Positions 2,219 to 8,370 of a stretch of DNA of 8,688 bases are shown piece after piece (the first letter of the stretch is position 1; every line of letters starts with the position of its first letter). The DNA comes from Clostridium sp. UBA6758 (GTDB taxonomy: Bacteria > Bacillota > Clostridia > Clostridiales > Clostridiaceae): positions 3,821 through 12,508 of the forward strand of contig DKGY01000066.1 in NCBI GenBank assembly GCA_002453475.1. Direction: 5' to 3'. Under the pieces are notes generated by a model, which had not been told where the DNA came from, ran no database searches, and saw only the letters and a program-made list of their open reading frames with translations. The translations under genes and the position numbers were made by a program.

Positions 2219-2556
2219 GCTTTCACCTTCTTATATCAATTATTATAAAGTATGATTGTGTTTTTTATGTGAAGTTAAAAATTTTGAAAGTATATCCACT
2301 AATATTACGATTGACTTGTATCATAAATACAATTACCTATAACTCTTTTATATTTTTTGTAACTTACATTATAAGAAGGCATTTAAATAAAGAAAATAAA
2401 TGTGAGCATTACTCAATTTCAGATCGTGAAATTTTAAGCATTATTTTTTTTGCGGAATAGACGTTTCAATTCAAGATATCCTAAAAATGCCCTAGTAATT
2501 TTCTGTGATTTAGGCTTAAATAAATATATAGAGAAAATATATATTAGGAGAGTGTT
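2219..2556. other. Divergent intergenic region between the two two-component systems
   Basis: These 338 bases separate two divergent sensor/regulator operons and must hold both promoters. Visible elements are the leftward TATAAT (2247-2242), a 6-bp inverted repeat TTGTAT/ATACAA (2316-2332) and TGACTTGTATCA (2312-2323), which resembles the dyad upstream of the ABC genes. There is also an inverted repeat CCTAAA/TTTAGG (2480-2485 and 2509-2514). No convincing rightward sigma-A promoter could be picked out. A rightward open stretch to 2460 lacks a ribosome binding site and continues from antisense of the regulator, so I do not call it a gene. Confidence 0.5.
2242..2247 (-). promoter_or_regulatory. 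Possible -10 element for the leftward operon
   Basis: A perfect TATAAT reads leftward 24 bases before the regulator start. The best -35 candidate, TTCACA at 2273-2268, is 20 bases away, which is too far for a standard sigma-A promoter. At a 17-base spacing only ACATAA is found. Either the promoter is activator-dependent or this is chance in AT-rich DNA. Confidence 0.35.
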
Positions 2557-3708
2557 ATGGTAAAGAGTAAAGAATTATTGTTAATGAGATACATATCATT
2601 TTGTATATTAACCTTTCAGTTATTTGTAGAAGTTGGAAATAAGAGTATAGTGAGTTTAGTTTTCCTTCTATTATTTATTATAAATAATCATTTGAGAACA
2701 TTTTATTTAGAAAAAGAGAGAAATGTTATTTTATCAATAATAATAGAGTTAGCAGTTATACCATTGGCACAATTAAATTTTGGAGGAACTATTATTTTTT
2801 ACTTAATAGGGGTATCCATAGATTTGTTTGCTTTTAAAAATAATATAGTTAAGTATGGAATAGGTCTTATAATTTTATTTATTGGGATTTATCCGAAGTT
2901 TAGTGGACCCATTGAAGATGGTATTATTAATTTTGTTTTGCTTGGATTATTTTTTATTCTTTTAAGCTATATATCTAGACTTTATAGTACTAAGGTAGAA
3001 GCTCAGCAGCTTTATGATAAGCTTAGGGTTTCAGATGAAAAGCTTATAGAAGCTAATAAAGAACTTGAAGGATATGTAGAATCTATTGAGGAATTAACCT
3101 TATTAAAGGAAAGAAATAGAATATCAAGGGAGATTCATGATAGCGTTGGACATACTTTATCTACTGCTCTGATTCAGTTATCTGCCATGGAAGCTATTGC
3201 GGAGAAAGAAAATAGTTCTATGAAGGATATGGTGGGAAATTTAAGAGCTTTTATTAGTGAAAGTTTTCAAGATGTAAAGAGAGCTGTAAGGGAGTTAAAA
3301 CCAGATGAATATGATAATTATCAAGGAATTTTAAGGCTTCAGGAGGTATGTAAAAACTTTGAAAGAATGTCTGGAGTTGAGGTTAAAGTCATTATATCAA
3401 AGAGTGATTGGAATTTATCAACTAAGCAGATTAATCATTTATATAGAATGACCCAAGAGGTTTTATCAAATTCTTTAAAGCATGGTAAGGCAACTATGGT
3501 TAAGGTTATTATGAATTTTGCAGAGGATGAGTTTGTAATATCCTTTAATGACAATGGTGTGGGAACAGATAAAATTGTGGAAAGTGGACTTGGACTTAGG
3601 AGTATAAGAGAAAGAGCAGAGGAAATAGATGGTTTAGTGGATATGAAATCTAGTGGGGGTAATGGATTCTTTGTTAAAGTTATAGTACCAAGGGAAATGG
3701 AGGTGTAG
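2557..3708 (+). CDS. Membrane histidine kinase of the HisKA_3 (NarX/DesK/LnrJ) class
   Basis: A 383-residue sensor kinase. The N-terminal third is almost all membrane, with about six hydrophobic helices (about 7-26, 29-44, 57-74, 77-93, 97-114, 122-141) and only short loops. It therefore probably senses its signal in or at the membrane. A basic, coiled-coil-like linker (about 143-185) leads to the HisKA_3 dimerisation helix with RISREIHDSVGHTL and phospho-acceptor His194. The ATPase domain has the N-box around Glu301-Asn305, the DNGVG motif (332-336) and GLGLRSIRERA (344-354). The ATG at 2557 follows AGGAG with a 6-base gap. It is the first gene of a rightward set with its cognate regulator, ATPase and two permeases. 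This order matches LnrJ (YfiJ) of B. subtilis, which detects linearmycin-type polyenes. The assignment rests on family and order, so the ligand here may differ. Confidence 0.93.
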   Translation: MVKSKELLLMRYISFCILTFQLFVEVGNKSIVSLVFLLLFIINNHLRTFYLEKERNVILSIIIELAVIPLAQLNFGGTIIFYLIGVSIDLFAFKNNIVKYGIGLIILFIGIYPKFSGPIEDGIINFVLLGLFFILLSYISRLYSTKVEAQQLYDKLRVSDEKLIEANKELEGYVESIEELTLLKERNRISREIHDSVGHTLSTALIQLSAMEAIAEKENSSMKDMVGNLRAFISESFQDVKRAVRELKPDEYDNYQGILRLQEVCKNFERMSGVEVKVIISKSDWNLSTKQINHLYRMTQEVLSNSLKHGKATMVKVIMNFAEDEFVISFNDNGVGTDKIVESGLGLRSIRERAEEIDGLVDMKSSGGNGFFVKVIVPREMEV

Positions 3709-3710
3709 GC

Positions 3711-4349
3711 ATGGAGAAGATTAAACTTTTAATTGTAGATGATGAGAAGTTAATAAGAGAAGGCTTGAAAGTGATGCTTTCAGTTTTTGATGATATTGAA
3801 GTTGTTGGAATAGCTGAAAATGGATATAAGGCTTTGGAAGTTTGCAAAACCTCTGATGTGGATGTTGTTCTTATGGATATAAGAATGAAAGTTTGTGATG
3901 GTGTTATGGGGACAAGACTTATTAAGGAGCAGTTTACAAAGATAAAGGTCATAATTCTTACCACATTCAAGGACAAGGAGTATATCCAAGAAGCTATGAG
4001 GTATGGGGCTTTTGGCTATATGCTTAAGGATAGTTCCCATGATGTAATCTATGAAGGGATAAAGACGGCTTATAAAGGTAATATGGTAGTCCATCCTGAT
4101 GTGGCTTTAGAAATGATGGGAAGTAATGGAGCGATTAAAAGTGATATAGATAGGTATGGACTTTTAGAGAAAGAGATTAAGATAATAGAAGCAATAGCTA
4201 AAGGATTGACCAATAAGGAAATTTCTGAAGAATTGTTTTTATCAGAAGGAACAATTAAAAATAACATTACTAATATACTATCAAAGTTGAAGCTTAGAGA
4301 TAGAACACAGATTGCAATTTTTGCTTTTAAAAATGGAATAGTGACTTAA
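3711..4349 (+). CDS. NarL/LuxR-family response regulator (LnrK-like)
   Basis: A 212-residue response regulator paired with the preceding kinase. The receiver domain (about 4-120) has Asp10/Asp11, phospho-acceptor Asp56 in LMDIRM, Thr84 and Lys106. The LuxR-type four-helix output domain (about 148-209) contains the segment LTNKEISEELFLSEGTIKNN. The proline normally found four residues after the phospho-Asp is Lys60 here (DIRMKVCDG), an unusual change in the loop that follows the active site. The start ATG lies two bases after the kinase stop, and its ribosome binding site GGAGGTG is formed by the last kinase codons, so the pair is tightly coupled. By analogy with LnrK it should activate the exporter genes 86 bases downstream. 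The dyads overlapping and following its stop codon are the natural candidates for its binding sites. Confidence 0.93.
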   Translation: MEKIKLLIVDDEKLIREGLKVMLSVFDDIEVVGIAENGYKALEVCKTSDVDVVLMDIRMKVCDGVMGTRLIKEQFTKIKVIILTTFKDKEYIQEAMRYGAFGYMLKDSSHDVIYEGIKTAYKGNMVVHPDVALEMMGSNGAIKSDIDRYGLLEKEIKIIEAIAKGLTNKEISEELFLSEGTIKNNITNILSKLKLRDRTQIAIFAFKNGIVT

Positions 4350-4376
4350 GTCATTTATATAGTGACCTCAAGTTAT
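4340..4376 (+). promoter_or_regulatory. Two tandem dyads, candidate response-regulator operator
   Basis: Site 1 is the perfect 12-bp palindrome TGACTTAAGTCA (4342-4353), inside AGTGACTTAAGTCAT; the regulator stop codon lies within it. Site 2 is AGTGACCTCAAGTTAT (4361-4376), the same layout with one extra central base and one changed half-site base. The two copies begin 21 bp apart, about two helical turns, so they lie on the same DNA face. They end just upstream of the poor -35 of the promoter at 4379-4407. This is where a LuxR-type activator would be expected to bind; which protein binds is inferred. Confidence 0.55.
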
Positions 4377-4378
4377 GG

Positions 4379-4407
4379 TTATCCCCCTGGTAATATCTTA
4401 TTATAAT
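4379..4407 (+). promoter_or_regulatory. Likely activator-dependent promoter of the ABC exporter operon
   Basis: A perfect TATAAT (4402-4407) lies 17 bases after TTATCC (4379-4384), which matches the -35 consensus poorly. A good -10 with a weak -35 and dyads immediately upstream is the usual pattern of a positively controlled promoter. Transcription would begin near 4413-4415, giving a leader of only about 21 bases before the ATPase start. Confidence 0.5.
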
Positions 4408-4427
4408 AGTAAGATAAGTCTAGGGGG
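4383..4427 (+). promoter_or_regulatory. Hairpin masking the ribosome binding site of the ABC ATPase
   Basis: CCCCC (4383-4387) faces GGGGG (4423-4427), extended by T4388-A4422, G4389-T4421 and G4390-C4420 into an 8-bp lower stem. After a 3x3 internal loop, TATCTTA (4394-4400) pairs with TAAGATA (4410-4416), extended by three more pairs to a 3-base loop. The lower right arm is the ribosome binding site AGGGGG, 7 bases before ATG 4435, so it would be closed in any transcript containing the whole element. Only TAATTTTA follows the stem, so it is a poor terminator. The apex contains the TATAAT of the promoter. A transcript started near 4414 loses the left arm and leaves the site open. Confidence 0.65.
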
Positions 4428-4434
4428 TAATTTT

Positions 4435-5370
4435 ATGAGCATTATAAAAGTAAAAAATATAAGCAAAAGATTTAATGATAAGTTAGTTTTAGATAATATT
4501 AGCTATGAAGTAAAAGAGGGCGAGATATTTGGATTTATCGGACCTAACGGAGCAGGTAAATCAACTTTAATAAATATTATGACAAGCCTTTTAACTCCAG
4601 ACAATGGGACTATCGAAATATGTGGATATGATATTTTAAAGGAGCCAATTAAGGCAAAGGAATGTATGGGATATGTTCCACAGGAGTTAGCACTAATGGA
4701 GGATCTTAATGCTTATGATAATTTAGAGTTCTTTGGAGCTTTATATGGACTAAAAGGTAAACTTTTGAAGGAAAGAATAGCAGAGGCACTTAAGGTAACT
4801 GGTTTAGCGGAAACTAGAAAGCAAAAGGTTAAAAAATTTTCAGGGGGAATGAAGAGAAGATTAAATATTGCAGTATCAATTTTACATCATCCAAAAGTTT
4901 TAATACTAGATGAACCTACCGTTGGCGTAGATCCACAATCAAGAAATCATATATTTTCTTTTATAAAAAATATATGTAAGGAGTGGGGTACTACAGTAAT
5001 TTATACTTCTCATTATATGGAGGAAATTGAAGAGCTTTGTAAGAGAGTATTTATAATAGATTTAGGGAAAGAAGTATCCTATGGAGATAGAGAAGAGATT
5101 AAAGCTTCAGTTTTCTCAAACAATAAGGTAATTATTGAAACACAAGATATAAGTGGAGAAACAATAATGAAGTTAAAGGATGTAGAAGGAATTGATAAGG
5201 TATCAGACAAGGATAATATACTTACTCTAACTATTGATTCAAAGTTTAAGCTAGCTAGTGTACTTTCTTTATTAGAGAAAGAAATCATTAATATAAAGAA
5301 GATTAGCTATGAAGAAGCAAAGCTTGAAGATGTATTTCTATCATTAACAGGAAAAACTTTAAGAGATTAG
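4435..5370 (+). CDS. ABC transporter ATP-binding protein (LnrL-like)
   Basis: A 311-residue cytoplasmic ATPase that would power the two permeases encoded next. It shows the Walker A motif GPNGAGKST (36-44), Q-loop Gln83 in YVPQ, signature FSGGM (135-139) and Walker B LILDEP (156-161) with catalytic Glu160. The D-loop (GVDPQSR) and H-loop His193 follow. The C-terminal extension (about 228-311), ending in LEDVFLSLTGK, is typical of ATPases serving ABC-2 drug or lipid exporters. The frame is open from an ATG at 4375, but the ATG at 4435 has the ribosome binding site AGGGGG and begins with the usual beta strand MSIIKVKNISKRF. The 4375 start would also run through the hairpin and promoter. The stop is 12 bases before the first permease. 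Order and length fit LnrL (YfiL) of the linearmycin exporter; the substrate here is unproven. Confidence 0.95.
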   Translation: MSIIKVKNISKRFNDKLVLDNISYEVKEGEIFGFIGPNGAGKSTLINIMTSLLTPDNGTIEICGYDILKEPIKAKECMGYVPQELALMEDLNAYDNLEFFGALYGLKGKLLKERIAEALKVTGLAETRKQKVKKFSGGMKRRLNIAVSILHHPKVLILDEPTVGVDPQSRNHIFSFIKNICKEWGTTVIYTSHYMEEIEELCKRVFIIDLGKEVSYGDREEIKASVFSNNKVIIETQDISGETIMKLKDVEGIDKVSDKDNILTLTIDSKFKLASVLSLLEKEIINIKKISYEEAKLEDVFLSLTGKTLRD

Positions 5371-5382
5371 GGGGAAGCTAAT

Positions 5383-6477
5383 ATGAAGGCATTATATTAT
5401 GTAAAAACTACCCTTAAGGGTATGTTTGCAAATGGAGTAGTTACCATACCATATTTTATCTTATTTCCTATTTTACTTGCTTGTTTTATGGCATTTGTTG
5501 GAAGCGTGAATGATGAAAACCCTCTAAAGCTTAAGGCATTAAATGTTCAAATTATTGATAAAGACAATACTGAGACATCAAAAAGATTGGTGGAGTTACT
5601 AGAAAGTGATGATTTGAAAGAGGTTGTAAGTATAGTAGATAAAAAGCCAGATGTGGAATTAGTAATAAAAGAAGGATATGAGGAAAATATTTTATCTTTA
5701 AATAAGGGAGATATAATTATTAATAAAAAAGTAGAAGGCATGAGAATGTCTACTGATACTTTAAAGGTAATTTTAGATAGATACCATCAGAGCTTATATG
5801 TATCTATAGCTGGTGGAAATGTGGAGAGTTTAAATAAAATTATGGAGTCATCTGTAATTGAAGATATCACAATAGATACCTTAAAGACTAATAATCTCTA
5901 TGAAAAAATATCAGCATCTATGATTGGATTTGTAGTTACCATGCTTATATTTACTATGATTCAAAGTGGATATGCAGATATTAGTATAAATTTAGATAAA
6001 AGAATTAATGCAACTCCTATAACAAAATTACAATGCCTTTTTTATGATACTATAGCTTTGATAGTATATGTGTTTATAATAATTAGTGCATATGTAATTT
6101 TCTTTAGAGTAGCTGGATTAAGTTTTAAAGGAAATATTTTAGATTTAATACTGTTAATCTTAATGGGAACTATGTTGGTAGTATCCATGTCTAAAAGTAT
6201 ATCCACTATATTTGGTCCTAAGTATGGAAAAATAATAGGATCCATAATATTTACATTGCCATTAATAAGTGGGGAAATATTTACGGGTTCAGGAAATAAA
6301 ATTGCATTACTAACGCCAACACATTATTTAAATAATGCATTTAATTTATACAATCTAAATGGAAATTTAGAAGGCTGTGGTAAATGGGTATTAATAATAT
6401 TTACAATGTCAATTATTATGTACTCTGCAGCAGTAATTAAAGCAGTAATTCAGGGGAGGAAAAAGGTATGCGCTTAA
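5383..6477 (+). CDS. ABC-2 type permease, first subunit (LnrM-like)
   Basis: A 364-residue integral membrane protein with the ABC-2 layout. A short cytoplasmic start is followed by helix 1 (about 19-40) and then a large outside domain (about 42-177). Five more hydrophobic segments follow (about 178-197, 220-242, 251-269, 281-299, 334-353). A basic tail closes the protein. The ribosome binding site TAGGGGGAAG overlaps the ATPase stop codon and lies 8 bases before the ATG, so translation is probably coupled. It likely forms the export channel as a heterodimer with the next gene product, energised by the preceding ATPase. The HYLNNAFNLYN segment before the last helix is of the kind often seen in ABC-2 permeases. 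Assignment to LnrM (YfiM) is by position and architecture. Confidence 0.9.
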   Translation: MKALYYVKTTLKGMFANGVVTIPYFILFPILLACFMAFVGSVNDENPLKLKALNVQIIDKDNTETSKRLVELLESDDLKEVVSIVDKKPDVELVIKEGYEENILSLNKGDIIINKKVEGMRMSTDTLKVILDRYHQSLYVSIAGGNVESLNKIMESSVIEDITIDTLKTNNLYEKISASMIGFVVTMLIFTMIQSGYADISINLDKRINATPITKLQCLFYDTIALIVYVFIIISAYVIFFRVAGLSFKGNILDLILLILMGTMLVVSMSKSISTIFGPKYGKIIGSIIFTLPLISGEIFTGSGNKIALLTPTHYLNNAFNLYNLNGNLEGCGKWVLIIFTMSIIMYSAAVIKAVIQGRKKVCA

Positions 6478-7535
6478 TAAGATTAGTATTAATTAATATG
6501 AAAAGACAATTAAAAAGTCCATTTATGTTACTAATGACCTTGATATTTCCTGTTGTTATGATTTTAGTTATAAATGGTGGAGGTTTAGGTAATGAATCAG
6601 AAAGCATAGGAATTATAGATAAAAGTAATTCAAATCACTCTACTGAGGTTATTGAGAGGTTGAGTGAAGAATACTCCATAAGCACACTAGAGGGTCAGAT
6701 AGAAGAGAACTTTAATTTGCTTAGAGAAAATAAATTAGGAGCAATTTATGTTATAGATGATAATTTTCAAGATTTATTAGATAATGGAGAGCTTCCTAAA
6801 ATTAAGTGTTATAGAACTGAGGCTGCTAGTGGCTCAATAATGGCAGAAGATATTATAACAAGCTATGTATCCGGAGTTGTTGAGGAAGAAGTAAGTGAGG
6901 GACTAAGCACAAATTCTACCACTGCAGTTATTGTAGATGAAGAAGTAGACAGTAAAGAGGACTATAAGATGACTGTATTAATGCTATGTTATTTTATGAT
7001 GATAGGTGGTTCTGTTATTGCTGGAGAAATAATTAAACTTAGAGAGCAAAAGGTATTAAAAAGAACCATAGCAACTAGTAATTCAGATATAACTATTTTA
7101 GGTAGTTTATTTATTTCATCCTTTATAATTCAAGGAGTTTTAAGTTGCTCAGCTTTTATAATTTTAACTATCTTATTAAAGCTTCCTAACAACAATATTC
7201 CTCAAGGAATACTGATTATATTCCTAAGTAGTTTAGTTACAACATCTATTATTGTGGCAGTAACAAGATGGATTAAAAATGTAACCTTAGCAAGTCTATC
7301 TACAGTTGTTTTTGGAATAGCTGCTTTTGGTTTGGGGATTTTTGGATCAGAGTTAGATACATTTGAGAATGTTCCAGAAATAATAACTAGAATTAGCGTA
7401 ATATCACCATTTACATGGTTATTAAAAATAATAGATACAGGCAAAATTATTATTCCTATTTTGATTATATCTCTGATGTCTATTATGTTCTTTACAGCAG
7501 GAAGCTTCAGGTTGAGGGAGTTTGTTAAGGAATAA
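6468..7535 (+). CDS. ABC-2 type permease, second subunit (LnrN-like)
   Basis: A 355-residue membrane protein with the same plan as its neighbour. Helix 1 is at about 18-37 and an extracytoplasmic domain at about 40-165. Five more hydrophobic segments lie at about 168-187, 209-236, 243-265, 274-294 and 325-345. The LKRTIATSNSD loop after helix 2 and the ISPFTWLLKIID segment before helix 6 fit ABC-2 exporters. The ATG overlaps the previous gene by 10 bases and is preceded by GGGGAGGA, which means tight coupling and probably a fixed 1:1 ratio with the first permease. It is the last gene of the exporter set. No clear rho-independent terminator follows it, so some read-through towards the acetyltransferase is possible. 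Its exact substrate cannot be read from sequence. Confidence 0.9.
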   Translation: MRLIRLVLINMKRQLKSPFMLLMTLIFPVVMILVINGGGLGNESESIGIIDKSNSNHSTEVIERLSEEYSISTLEGQIEENFNLLRENKLGAIYVIDDNFQDLLDNGELPKIKCYRTEAASGSIMAEDIITSYVSGVVEEEVSEGLSTNSTTAVIVDEEVDSKEDYKMTVLMLCYFMMIGGSVIAGEIIKLREQKVLKRTIATSNSDITILGSLFISSFIIQGVLSCSAFIILTILLKLPNNNIPQGILIIFLSSLVTTSIIVAVTRWIKNVTLASLSTVVFGIAAFGLGIFGSELDTFENVPEIITRISVISPFTWLLKIIDTGKIIIPILIISLMSIMFFTAGSFRLREFVKE

Positions 7536-7768: not shown

Positions 7769-7807
7769 ATGAAATATCCTTCTTTAAAAGTATTTTTATT
7801 TTCATAG
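7769..7807 (+). CDS. Short upstream ORF, candidate leader peptide
   Basis: A 12-codon frame encodes MKYPSLKVFLFS. Its ATG follows GGAG (7757-7760) with an 8-base gap, so it looks translatable. It lies in the predicted leader of the acetyltransferase. Its stop codon TAG (7805-7807) sits in the left arm of hairpin A. Its Pro4-Ser5 codons CCTTCT (7778-7783) can pair with the acetyltransferase ribosome binding site AGGAGG (7890-7895), with one G-U pair. This arrangement resembles drug-responsive leader peptides, but regulation is inferred, and a frame this short could occur by chance. Confidence 0.4.
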   Translation: MKYPSLKVFLFS

Positions 7808-7871
7808 CAAAGACTGCTATGAATAAATTGAATTATTAGCATATTAAATTGATTTTTATGTAGTCTTTGCT
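7801..7871 (+). promoter_or_regulatory. Two mutually exclusive hairpins in the acetyltransferase leader
   Basis: Hairpin A is a perfect 9-bp stem, TTCATAGCA (7801-7809) with TGCTATGAA (7815-7823), loop AAGAC. Hairpin B pairs AGCAAAGACT (7806-7815) with AGTCTTTGCT (7862-7871), extended by G-U and C-G pairs to 12 bp (7806-7817 with 7860-7871). The two share bases 7806-7817 and cannot form together. Neither is followed by a T run. Such switching stems are typical of attenuation leaders. An alternative reading of hairpin B is a very short terminal-inverted-repeat insertion. Confidence 0.5.
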
Positions 7872-7905
7872 TAAGTAACTATATTAATTAGGAGGCGAAG
7901 ATAAT

Positions 7906-8370
7906 ATGAAATTAGAATTTAGGGTACCTACAAAAAGTGATGTAGATGATATTTTAACTTGGAAATATGACGGAATATATTCATTCTATGATAATGATAT
8001 ACAAAAGGAAAAAATAGAGTGGATAAAAAGCTTTGTTGATTCGGATGATAATTTTTCAATTTATAATGATAACAACAAGCTAGTAGGGAATTGTTCATTC
8101 TATTATATTGAAGAATTTTTCTGCGTAGGTTTGCAAATGCAACCAGAGCTTACAGGAAAAGGTTTTGGTATAGAGTTTGCAAAAGCAATAATTGATTTTG
8201 GAAGAGAAAAATATAAATTTAATTATATTGATTTAACAGTTGCAAATTTCAATAATAGAGCTATTAAAGTGTATGAGAAATTAGGATTTAAAGTTATTGA
8301 AGAATTTGTTAATACAATAAGAGGAAATGATTATGATTTTTTAGCTATGAGATTAGTATTTAATGAATAG
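7906..8370 (+). CDS. GNAT-family N-acetyltransferase
   Basis: A 154-residue soluble protein, normal length for a single GNAT domain, that should transfer acetyl from acetyl-CoA to an amine. The N-terminus (FRVPTKSDVDDILTWKYDG) fits the first strand and helix of RimI/RimJ-like members. Motif A is visible at about 75-101, with the acetyl-CoA pyrophosphate loop ELTGKGFG (81-88). Motif B follows at about 108-131, with LTVANFNNRAIKVYEKLGFKV including Asn114, Asn117 and Tyr123. The ATG at 7906 has a consensus AGGAGG 10 bases upstream. It is monocistronic, with its own promoter, a long structured leader and a terminator. The substrate cannot be deduced. A protein, a small amine or an antibiotic are all possible, and the leader would fit an inducible resistance or detoxification role. 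That idea is inference only. Confidence 0.92.
   Translation: MKLEFRVPTKSDVDDILTWKYDGIYSFYDNDIQKEKIEWIKSFVDSDDNFSIYNDNNKLVGNCSFYYIEEFFCVGLQMQPELTGKGFGIEFAKAIIDFGREKYKFNYIDLTVANFNNRAIKVYEKLGFKVIEEFVNTIRGNDYDFLAMRLVFNE

Follow-up and report, generated by a model that had tools for sequence, protein, structure and literature searches.

A hairpin between the sensor and exporter genes of clostridial lnr-type loci as a predicted terminator of read-through RNA that holds the likely exporter promoter and its ribosome binding site

In an lnr-type locus of Clostridium sp. UBA6758, the hairpin located between the two-component genes and the ABC exporter genes holds the likely promoter of the exporter together with its ribosome binding site and is predicted to be a terminator that only RNA coming from upstream could form. 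We give this reading, which comes from comparative sequence analysis, a probability of roughly 0.7. The window, i.e., the whole stretch of 8,688 nucleotides that was analyzed, has the gene order of the LnrJK-LnrLMN type (HisKA_3 kinase, NarL-type regulator, ATPase and two ABC-2 permeases). The features discussed below are as follows.

2557..3708, + strand: sensor histidine kinase gene (HisKA_3 / HATPase_c)
3711..4349, + strand: NarL/LuxR-type response regulator gene, with its stop codon (4347-4349) within box 1
4341..4354, + strand: box 1, GTGACTTAAGTCAT (palindrome TGACTTAAGTCA), presumed regulator site, conserved 5' of the exporter promoter
4362..4376, + strand: box 2, GTGACCTCAAGTTAT, a degenerate second copy, 21 bp 3' of box 1
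4383..4427, + strand: hairpin that covers the ribosome binding site and is predicted to end read-through RNA as an intrinsic terminator
4399..4404, + strand: conserved -10 element TATTAT, in the upper stem and loop of the hairpin
4402..4407, + strand: TATAAT, present, not the conserved hexamer
4411..4411, + strand: predicted transcription start A, 7 nt after the -10 element
4422..4427, + strand: AGGGGG, ribosome binding site for the ATPase gene, located in the 3' arm and entirely inside the lower stem
4428..4434, + strand: T-rich spacer TAATTTT in the position of the U-tract, weak in the window, with up to 7 consecutive T in relatives
4435..5370, + strand: ABC exporter ATPase gene, DrrA-like (slightly under the curated NCBIfam cut-off), ATG at 4435-4437
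5383..6477, + strand: ABC-2 type permease 1
6468..7535, + strand: ABC-2 type permease 2

The mechanism that we propose is as follows. RNA coming from the kinase and regulator genes carries both arms, and so it would fold and be terminated at the T-tract just 5' of the start codon; those molecules that escaped termination would still have a buried ribosome binding site. RNA begun at about A4411, as suggested by the conserved position of the -10 element and of the start, lacks the 5' arm and would therefore be neither terminated nor closed. The phosphorylated regulator would likely bind both upstream boxes and thereby switch on the inner promoter. As a result, the sensor could be made constantly without leak of the exporter, and the exporter would likely answer only to its own switch. 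Termination likely forms the first layer of this control, with the closing of the binding site as the second. The sequence-only reading had proposed a two-layer switch dependent on the start site; its start-site logic stands, while the termination signature, the operator-like boxes and the loci with separate terminators were missing from it. If the proposal is true, a potentially costly exporter is insulated from a constitutive sensor with almost no extra DNA, the same bases being shared between the functions, and the labels that the site might otherwise receive, a plain terminator or an ATPase gene in one operon with the regulator, are each half right.

The hairpin itself is real. The 45-base structure burying AGGGGG, which had been noticed from the letters of the window, was confirmed: the segment 4379-4437 has a folding energy of -23.5 kcal/mol (z -4.69), none of 200 dinucleotide shuffles being as good, with a lower stem of 8 bp (4383-4390 with 4420-4427) that takes in AGGGGG as a whole, and an upper stem of 10 bp (4394-4403 with 4407-4416) closed by the loop 4404-4406. 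Related loci were collected via permease homology, so that the sample was not chosen by the hairpin. The collection proceeded through 14 loci from genome contigs, genus and family searches, and 20 further stretches; a permease match at E 1e-15 or better was present in 50 of the 206 genomes of the family. The 51 loci with a located ATPase start represent 49 of the matching family genomes, the window and L007. Outside the 51 are the C. senegalense locus L012, in which the N-terminus of the ATPase was unmatched, and L043 and L046, which come from that genome as well; L012 has the hairpin and was retained in alignments A2 and A4. L015, L018, and L024 were excluded because the ATPase match was absent, and L016 was counted separately; L005 is the contig of L047, L039 the genome of L064, and the unnamed loci within L017-L043 are repeat genomes. 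Among plasmid records, four gave matches, all of them short, and viral contigs yielded no relative.

The hairpin, 44-59 bases long, is present in 34 of the 51 lnr-type loci and in over 30 clostridial genomes. The energies of the best hairpin at the ribosome binding site are two-peaked, 34 loci having -15.5 or lower and 16 having -6.2 or higher, with L054 (-9.3) between them; the cut at -15 was chosen post hoc, once this distribution was in view. Removal of L038 and L064, which are identical to L037 across the element, leaves 32 distinct hairpin loci. The control set consisted of 907 genes; they lie on 80 stretches of 20 kb each, for which 20 genomes were sampled, three of these contributing 60 stretches.

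Comparison of the arms between species argues that the pairing itself is what has been kept. The duplex of each locus's own arms has a mean energy of -14.2 kcal/mol, against -10.8 kcal/mol (sd 0.37) when the arms are swapped between species, and none of 10,000 permutations was as good; the same holds for 19 representatives with less than 80% ATPase identity (-13.6 vs. -10.3, again 0 of 10,000). The binding site occurs in the 32 loci as GGGGG (19), GGAGG (10), or GGGAG (3), and the left arm changes to match, its partner to the third base giving C-G in 20 loci, T-A in 10, T-G in two and a mismatch in none. RNAalifold, applied to a plain MAFFT alignment (35 rows), found 10 pairs, eight of them with changes on both sides. 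A model-fitted alignment (34 rows), which is biased towards structure, has 90.9% of its cells paired, compared with 81.9% when shuffled and at most 67.4% when slid. The compensatory changes that the sequence-only reading proposed to look for in related clostridia are thus seen, and, to judge from these alignments, the arms are conserved as RNA pairing.

The hairpin is followed by the kind of spacer that an intrinsic terminator would need. Between the binding site and the start codon, the 32 hairpin loci have 77% T and the 16 hairpin-less loci 48%, as compared to 35% in the 136 control genes whose binding site is strong (p 9e-16 for hairpin loci vs. controls). A rule demanding a stem of -8 or lower, five T in eight positions, three T in the first four, and the end of the stem near the start codon is passed by 32 of the 34 hairpin loci and by 7 of the 907 control genes; the latter shows that the signature is not unique to lnr-type loci. 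In its first version the rule had separated 30/32 distinct hairpin loci from 0/17 loci without a strong hairpin. Since both the T-tract and the rule set these loci apart, the hairpin probably acts as a terminator, with the ribosome binding site as its 3' arm and the downstream promoter inside it. The window passes the rule with a weak tract: the TAATTTT after the stem is common to it and its two closest relatives, and because of this weakness the window strain may depend more on the burial of the binding site. An apparent relic of the element is found in L003, in which an insert of 1.7 kb (2325-4053) carries an antiporter gene (2509-3933). There, the copy beside the regulator retains the stem and the T-tract, the start codon being absent, and a full copy precedes the ATPase gene.

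The two RNA forms are predicted to differ strongly in the accessibility of the binding site. In read-through RNA, the mean probability for the site to be unpaired is 0.01, with an opening cost of 14.2 kcal/mol; in RNA from the predicted start these values are 0.63 and 1.5 kcal/mol, although the site is predicted to be more than 0.5 open in only 25 of the 32 loci. The modeling is in line with the sequence-only proposal of a site closed in the former and open in the latter.

The position of the promoter was derived from an alignment of 47 promoters anchored on box 2; 32 of them belong to the distinct hairpin loci, and the 15 others include that of L054. The TNAC core of box 2 is near-invariant across them, the spacing between boxes 1 and 2 is 21-23 bp, and in 27 of the 34 hairpin loci, including the window, box 1 overlaps the final codons and the stop of the regulator gene; the regulator itself is inferred to bind both boxes. 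At a distance of 36 nt from box 2 lies the motif TANNAT, its fixed positions being T in 45, A in 44, A in 46, and T in 45 of the 47 promoters, with all four present in 44 (30/32 hairpin loci and 14/15 others). As the hairpin-less loci share the spacing between the boxes and the -10 element, the conservation of the promoter is independent of the fold. That the -10 element lies within the hairpin, as had been suggested, holds in position for 32 of 32 distinct hairpin loci; its exact placement had to be corrected. The perfect TATAAT at 4402-4407, taken earlier for the -10 element, is indeed present, but the conserved element is three bases upstream of it, and the last T of TATAAT is kept in only 14 of the 47 promoters. 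Likewise, the predicted start, placed earlier at about 4414, moves to A4411, a position at which 43 of the 47 promoters have A. In all 32 loci, the strand complementary to the binding site stops 10-13 nt 5' of the -10 position, and this position and the predicted start are such that RNA begun there would lack the 5' arm. A consensus promoter scan of the window gave 55 matches against 53.6 expected, so that the TATAAT hexamer alone is not evidence. In the same scan a sigma-70 -35 match was not found at the exporter promoter, for which reason the scan reports no promoter at the hairpin and the promoter is predicted from conservation alone. The absence of a -35 match is what is expected of a promoter dependent on an activator.

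Loci that keep the binding site and lose the pairing of the left arm without compensation had been named beforehand as evidence against the switch. Such an objection applies in part: 16 of the 51 loci lack the hairpin, and among the 13 assessed, in which the regulator stop and box 1 are both in view, six have a separate terminator, two a weaker candidate and five neither. In the six (L002, L068, L070, L072, L075, and L076), the terminator lies between the regulator stop and box 1, with 0 of 60 shuffles equal to it; the weaker candidates are L073 (5 of 60 shuffles equal) and L074 (1 of 10). Neither a hairpin nor a terminator between the regulator stop and box 1 was found in L056, L065, L067, L069, and L071; two of these, L056 and L065, do have a hairpin formed by box 1 itself, with T after it. 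Four loci in which the regulator stop or box 1 is out of view were left out of this assessment, namely the hairpin-less L047, L052, and L066, and L054 with its weak hairpin. On the ATPase tree, the six belong to two lineages, C. ihumii (L002) and one clade. C. ihumii falls into a group of ten rows (support 100/99) with eight hairpin loci; its left arm is missing and its terminator is located 5' of box 1. The hairpin label needs eight changes on the tree, which means that gain and loss of the hairpin recur. A terminator-like upstream signal is also present in two hairpin loci, L003 and L053, and so the hairpin and the separate terminator are not strictly exclusive. The association (6/13 hairpin-less vs. 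2/34 hairpin loci; Fisher p 0.003) ignores kinship, and its independence is overstated, as the separate-terminator loci represent only two lineages. The hairpin loci and the separate-terminator loci form a natural contrast set for the insulation against read-through. As a separate observation, the promoter and the ATPase gene of L069 are separated by an inserted open reading frame of 35 codons (found by eye).

Several other explanations of the hairpin should be considered. It could act on translation only: as with gene e of phage T4, read-through RNA would have its binding site buried, with no termination of transcription. The covariation and the predicted openness would fit such an action equally well, and the tract in the window is weak. 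Nevertheless, we regard it as unlikely, since it leaves unexplained the T runs in the spacer (at least four T in 31 of 32 hairpin loci vs. 14 of 136 controls) and the presence of an ordinary terminator as a substitute in two lineages; the apparent relic in L003, a stem and a T-tract without a start codon, also speaks against it, albeit as one case. A regulated attenuator, in which RNA started upstream carries a terminator that a ligand, a ribosome or a protein opens, is another possibility, attenuators of this kind being common in Firmicutes. However, the gap between the regulator stop and the hairpin is only 33 nt and in the window carries no leader open reading frame, Rfam gave no match to the window up to E 1, and the region upstream is already explained by the boxes; all this makes an attenuator very improbable.

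As to the DNA level, the dyad might be an operator, i.e., a site of the regulator or of a repressor, whose RNA fold is incidental. The upper stem is near-palindromic, and dyads are dense in the promoter region. Yet the left arm tracks the variant of the binding site (GGGGG, GGAGG, or GGGAG) and is absent in loci in which both boxes and the -10 element are retained, while the boxes of the regulator type sit upstream, 36 nt from the -10 element; we see very little room for an operator at the hairpin. Finally, A+T-rich clostridial spacers fold often, and the consensus of the -10 element is by itself at chance level in the window, but a chance origin is hardly conceivable in view of the shuffling results (0/200), of the occurrence of hairpins at -15 or lower in 8 of 907 control genes vs. 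34 of 51 loci, and of the arm-swap test (0/10,000), which refutes it.

The reading preferred here, a terminator of read-through RNA with the exporter promoter and binding site inside, has partial parallels in known systems. In IS10 and IS50, RNA entering from outside forms a fold that covers the transposase ribosome binding site, whereas RNA from the element's own promoter does not; these are mobile elements without two-component control, whereas the clostridial element stands at a two-component locus. In riboswitch terminators with the Shine-Dalgarno sequence in the 3' arm, one arm doubles as terminator strand and ribosome binding site; there, the ligand decides, while in the clostridial element the start site would decide. 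The closing of a binding site depending on the start of the RNA is already established in phage T4: according to the accessible text of the sources, a hairpin of the early read-through RNA of the late genes e, soc, 49, and that of the homing endonuclease I-TevI covers the ribosome binding site, and the late promoter starts RNA past the 5' arm, so that late RNA is translated (PMC2988022, PMC3014915). By the sequence tests made, the clostridial element appears to resemble this type, as its start site, too, would decide on the closing of the binding site. The difference is that the phage genes have phage late promoters, with a terminator role unstated in the accessible text, while the clostridial element serves cellular genes, has a seemingly regulator-driven promoter and a U-tract. 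New relative to phage T4 are the T-tract, owing to which the same hairpin should also terminate, a promoter of the regulator type, and the broad conservation in a cellular setting.

The lnrJK-lnrLMN locus of B. subtilis is alike in its arrangement: as far as the accessible text goes, the genes of a two-component pair precede those of an ABC exporter, which have an inducible promoter of their own; lnrK and lnrL are insulated from one another, and a Rho-independent terminator is drawn between them (PMC7472640). This is an ordinary terminator, with no hairpin over the binding site described in the accessible text (PMC7472640), as opposed to the nested hairpin of the clostridia. In the literature covered by our search, mostly journals without subscription and some sources only in part, we found no account of a terminator that overlies a ribosome binding site and has a promoter nested within it.

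When a model of the element was run against the 206 genomes, 38 of them had matches with a per-genome E of 1e-3 or better, 40 in all. Six of these are not lnr promoters already counted; with two exceptions, the six have a weak E of between 1e-4 and 1e-3 per genome, a level at which about 0.2 chance matches are expected across the 206 genomes. L131 (3047-3118, + strand, E 9e-4) lies between a MutS2-like gene and a gene of the 2-thiouracil desulfurase family; its hairpin over the binding site (-25.5, z -6.8) is followed by a short T-tract. L130 (2873-2953, - strand, E 6e-4) lies between genes of a pyridoxal-dependent decarboxylase and an M18 peptidase; its hairpin over the binding site (-27.1, z -5.1) has no T-tract. 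Both have TATAAT or TACAAT in the region of the hairpin loop. Since a similar build occurs at these unrelated gene pairs, one element of about 45-60 bases that is promoter, terminator, and binding site at once, the birthplace of the RNA deciding on termination, may be a general compact insulator between neighboring operons. To the reading of the element as all three at once, with this possible wider role, we would give even odds.

The search also brought up several minor observations. L132 (the L016 site; 2859-2935, - strand) in C. nigeriense (G010) has the box pair and the -10 element ahead of an ABC ATPase-permease pair; sensor genes are absent upstream of it, and its ribosome binding site is not covered by a hairpin (z 0.4). 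It is likely a second target of the regulator. In L129, a hairpin of the element kind over the binding site was not found. L127 is a relic of the boxes and hairpin ahead of a five-codon remnant. In L128 (2530-2606), the kinase-regulator pair stands at the end of a contig, its exporter half apparently being L047 at another contig end of the same genome; the hairpin is split as if by an insertion element, the sensor genes being parted from the exporter. A similar layout, TATAAT within a strong hairpin over the binding site, was seen in two of the 907 control genes, in L087 near 15926 (+ strand) and in L157 near 5622 (- strand). The gene of L157 codes for a member of the sodium/hydrogen exchanger family that shares 68% identity with the product of the gene inserted in L003. 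Elsewhere in the window, at 7769-7872, an open reading frame of 12 codons with a GGAG-like site upstream of it and then a long-range stem of 12 bp precede a GNAT acetyltransferase gene (7906-8370); this arrangement resembles a leader-peptide attenuator, its fold having a z of -2.1, with 8 of 200 shuffles as good.
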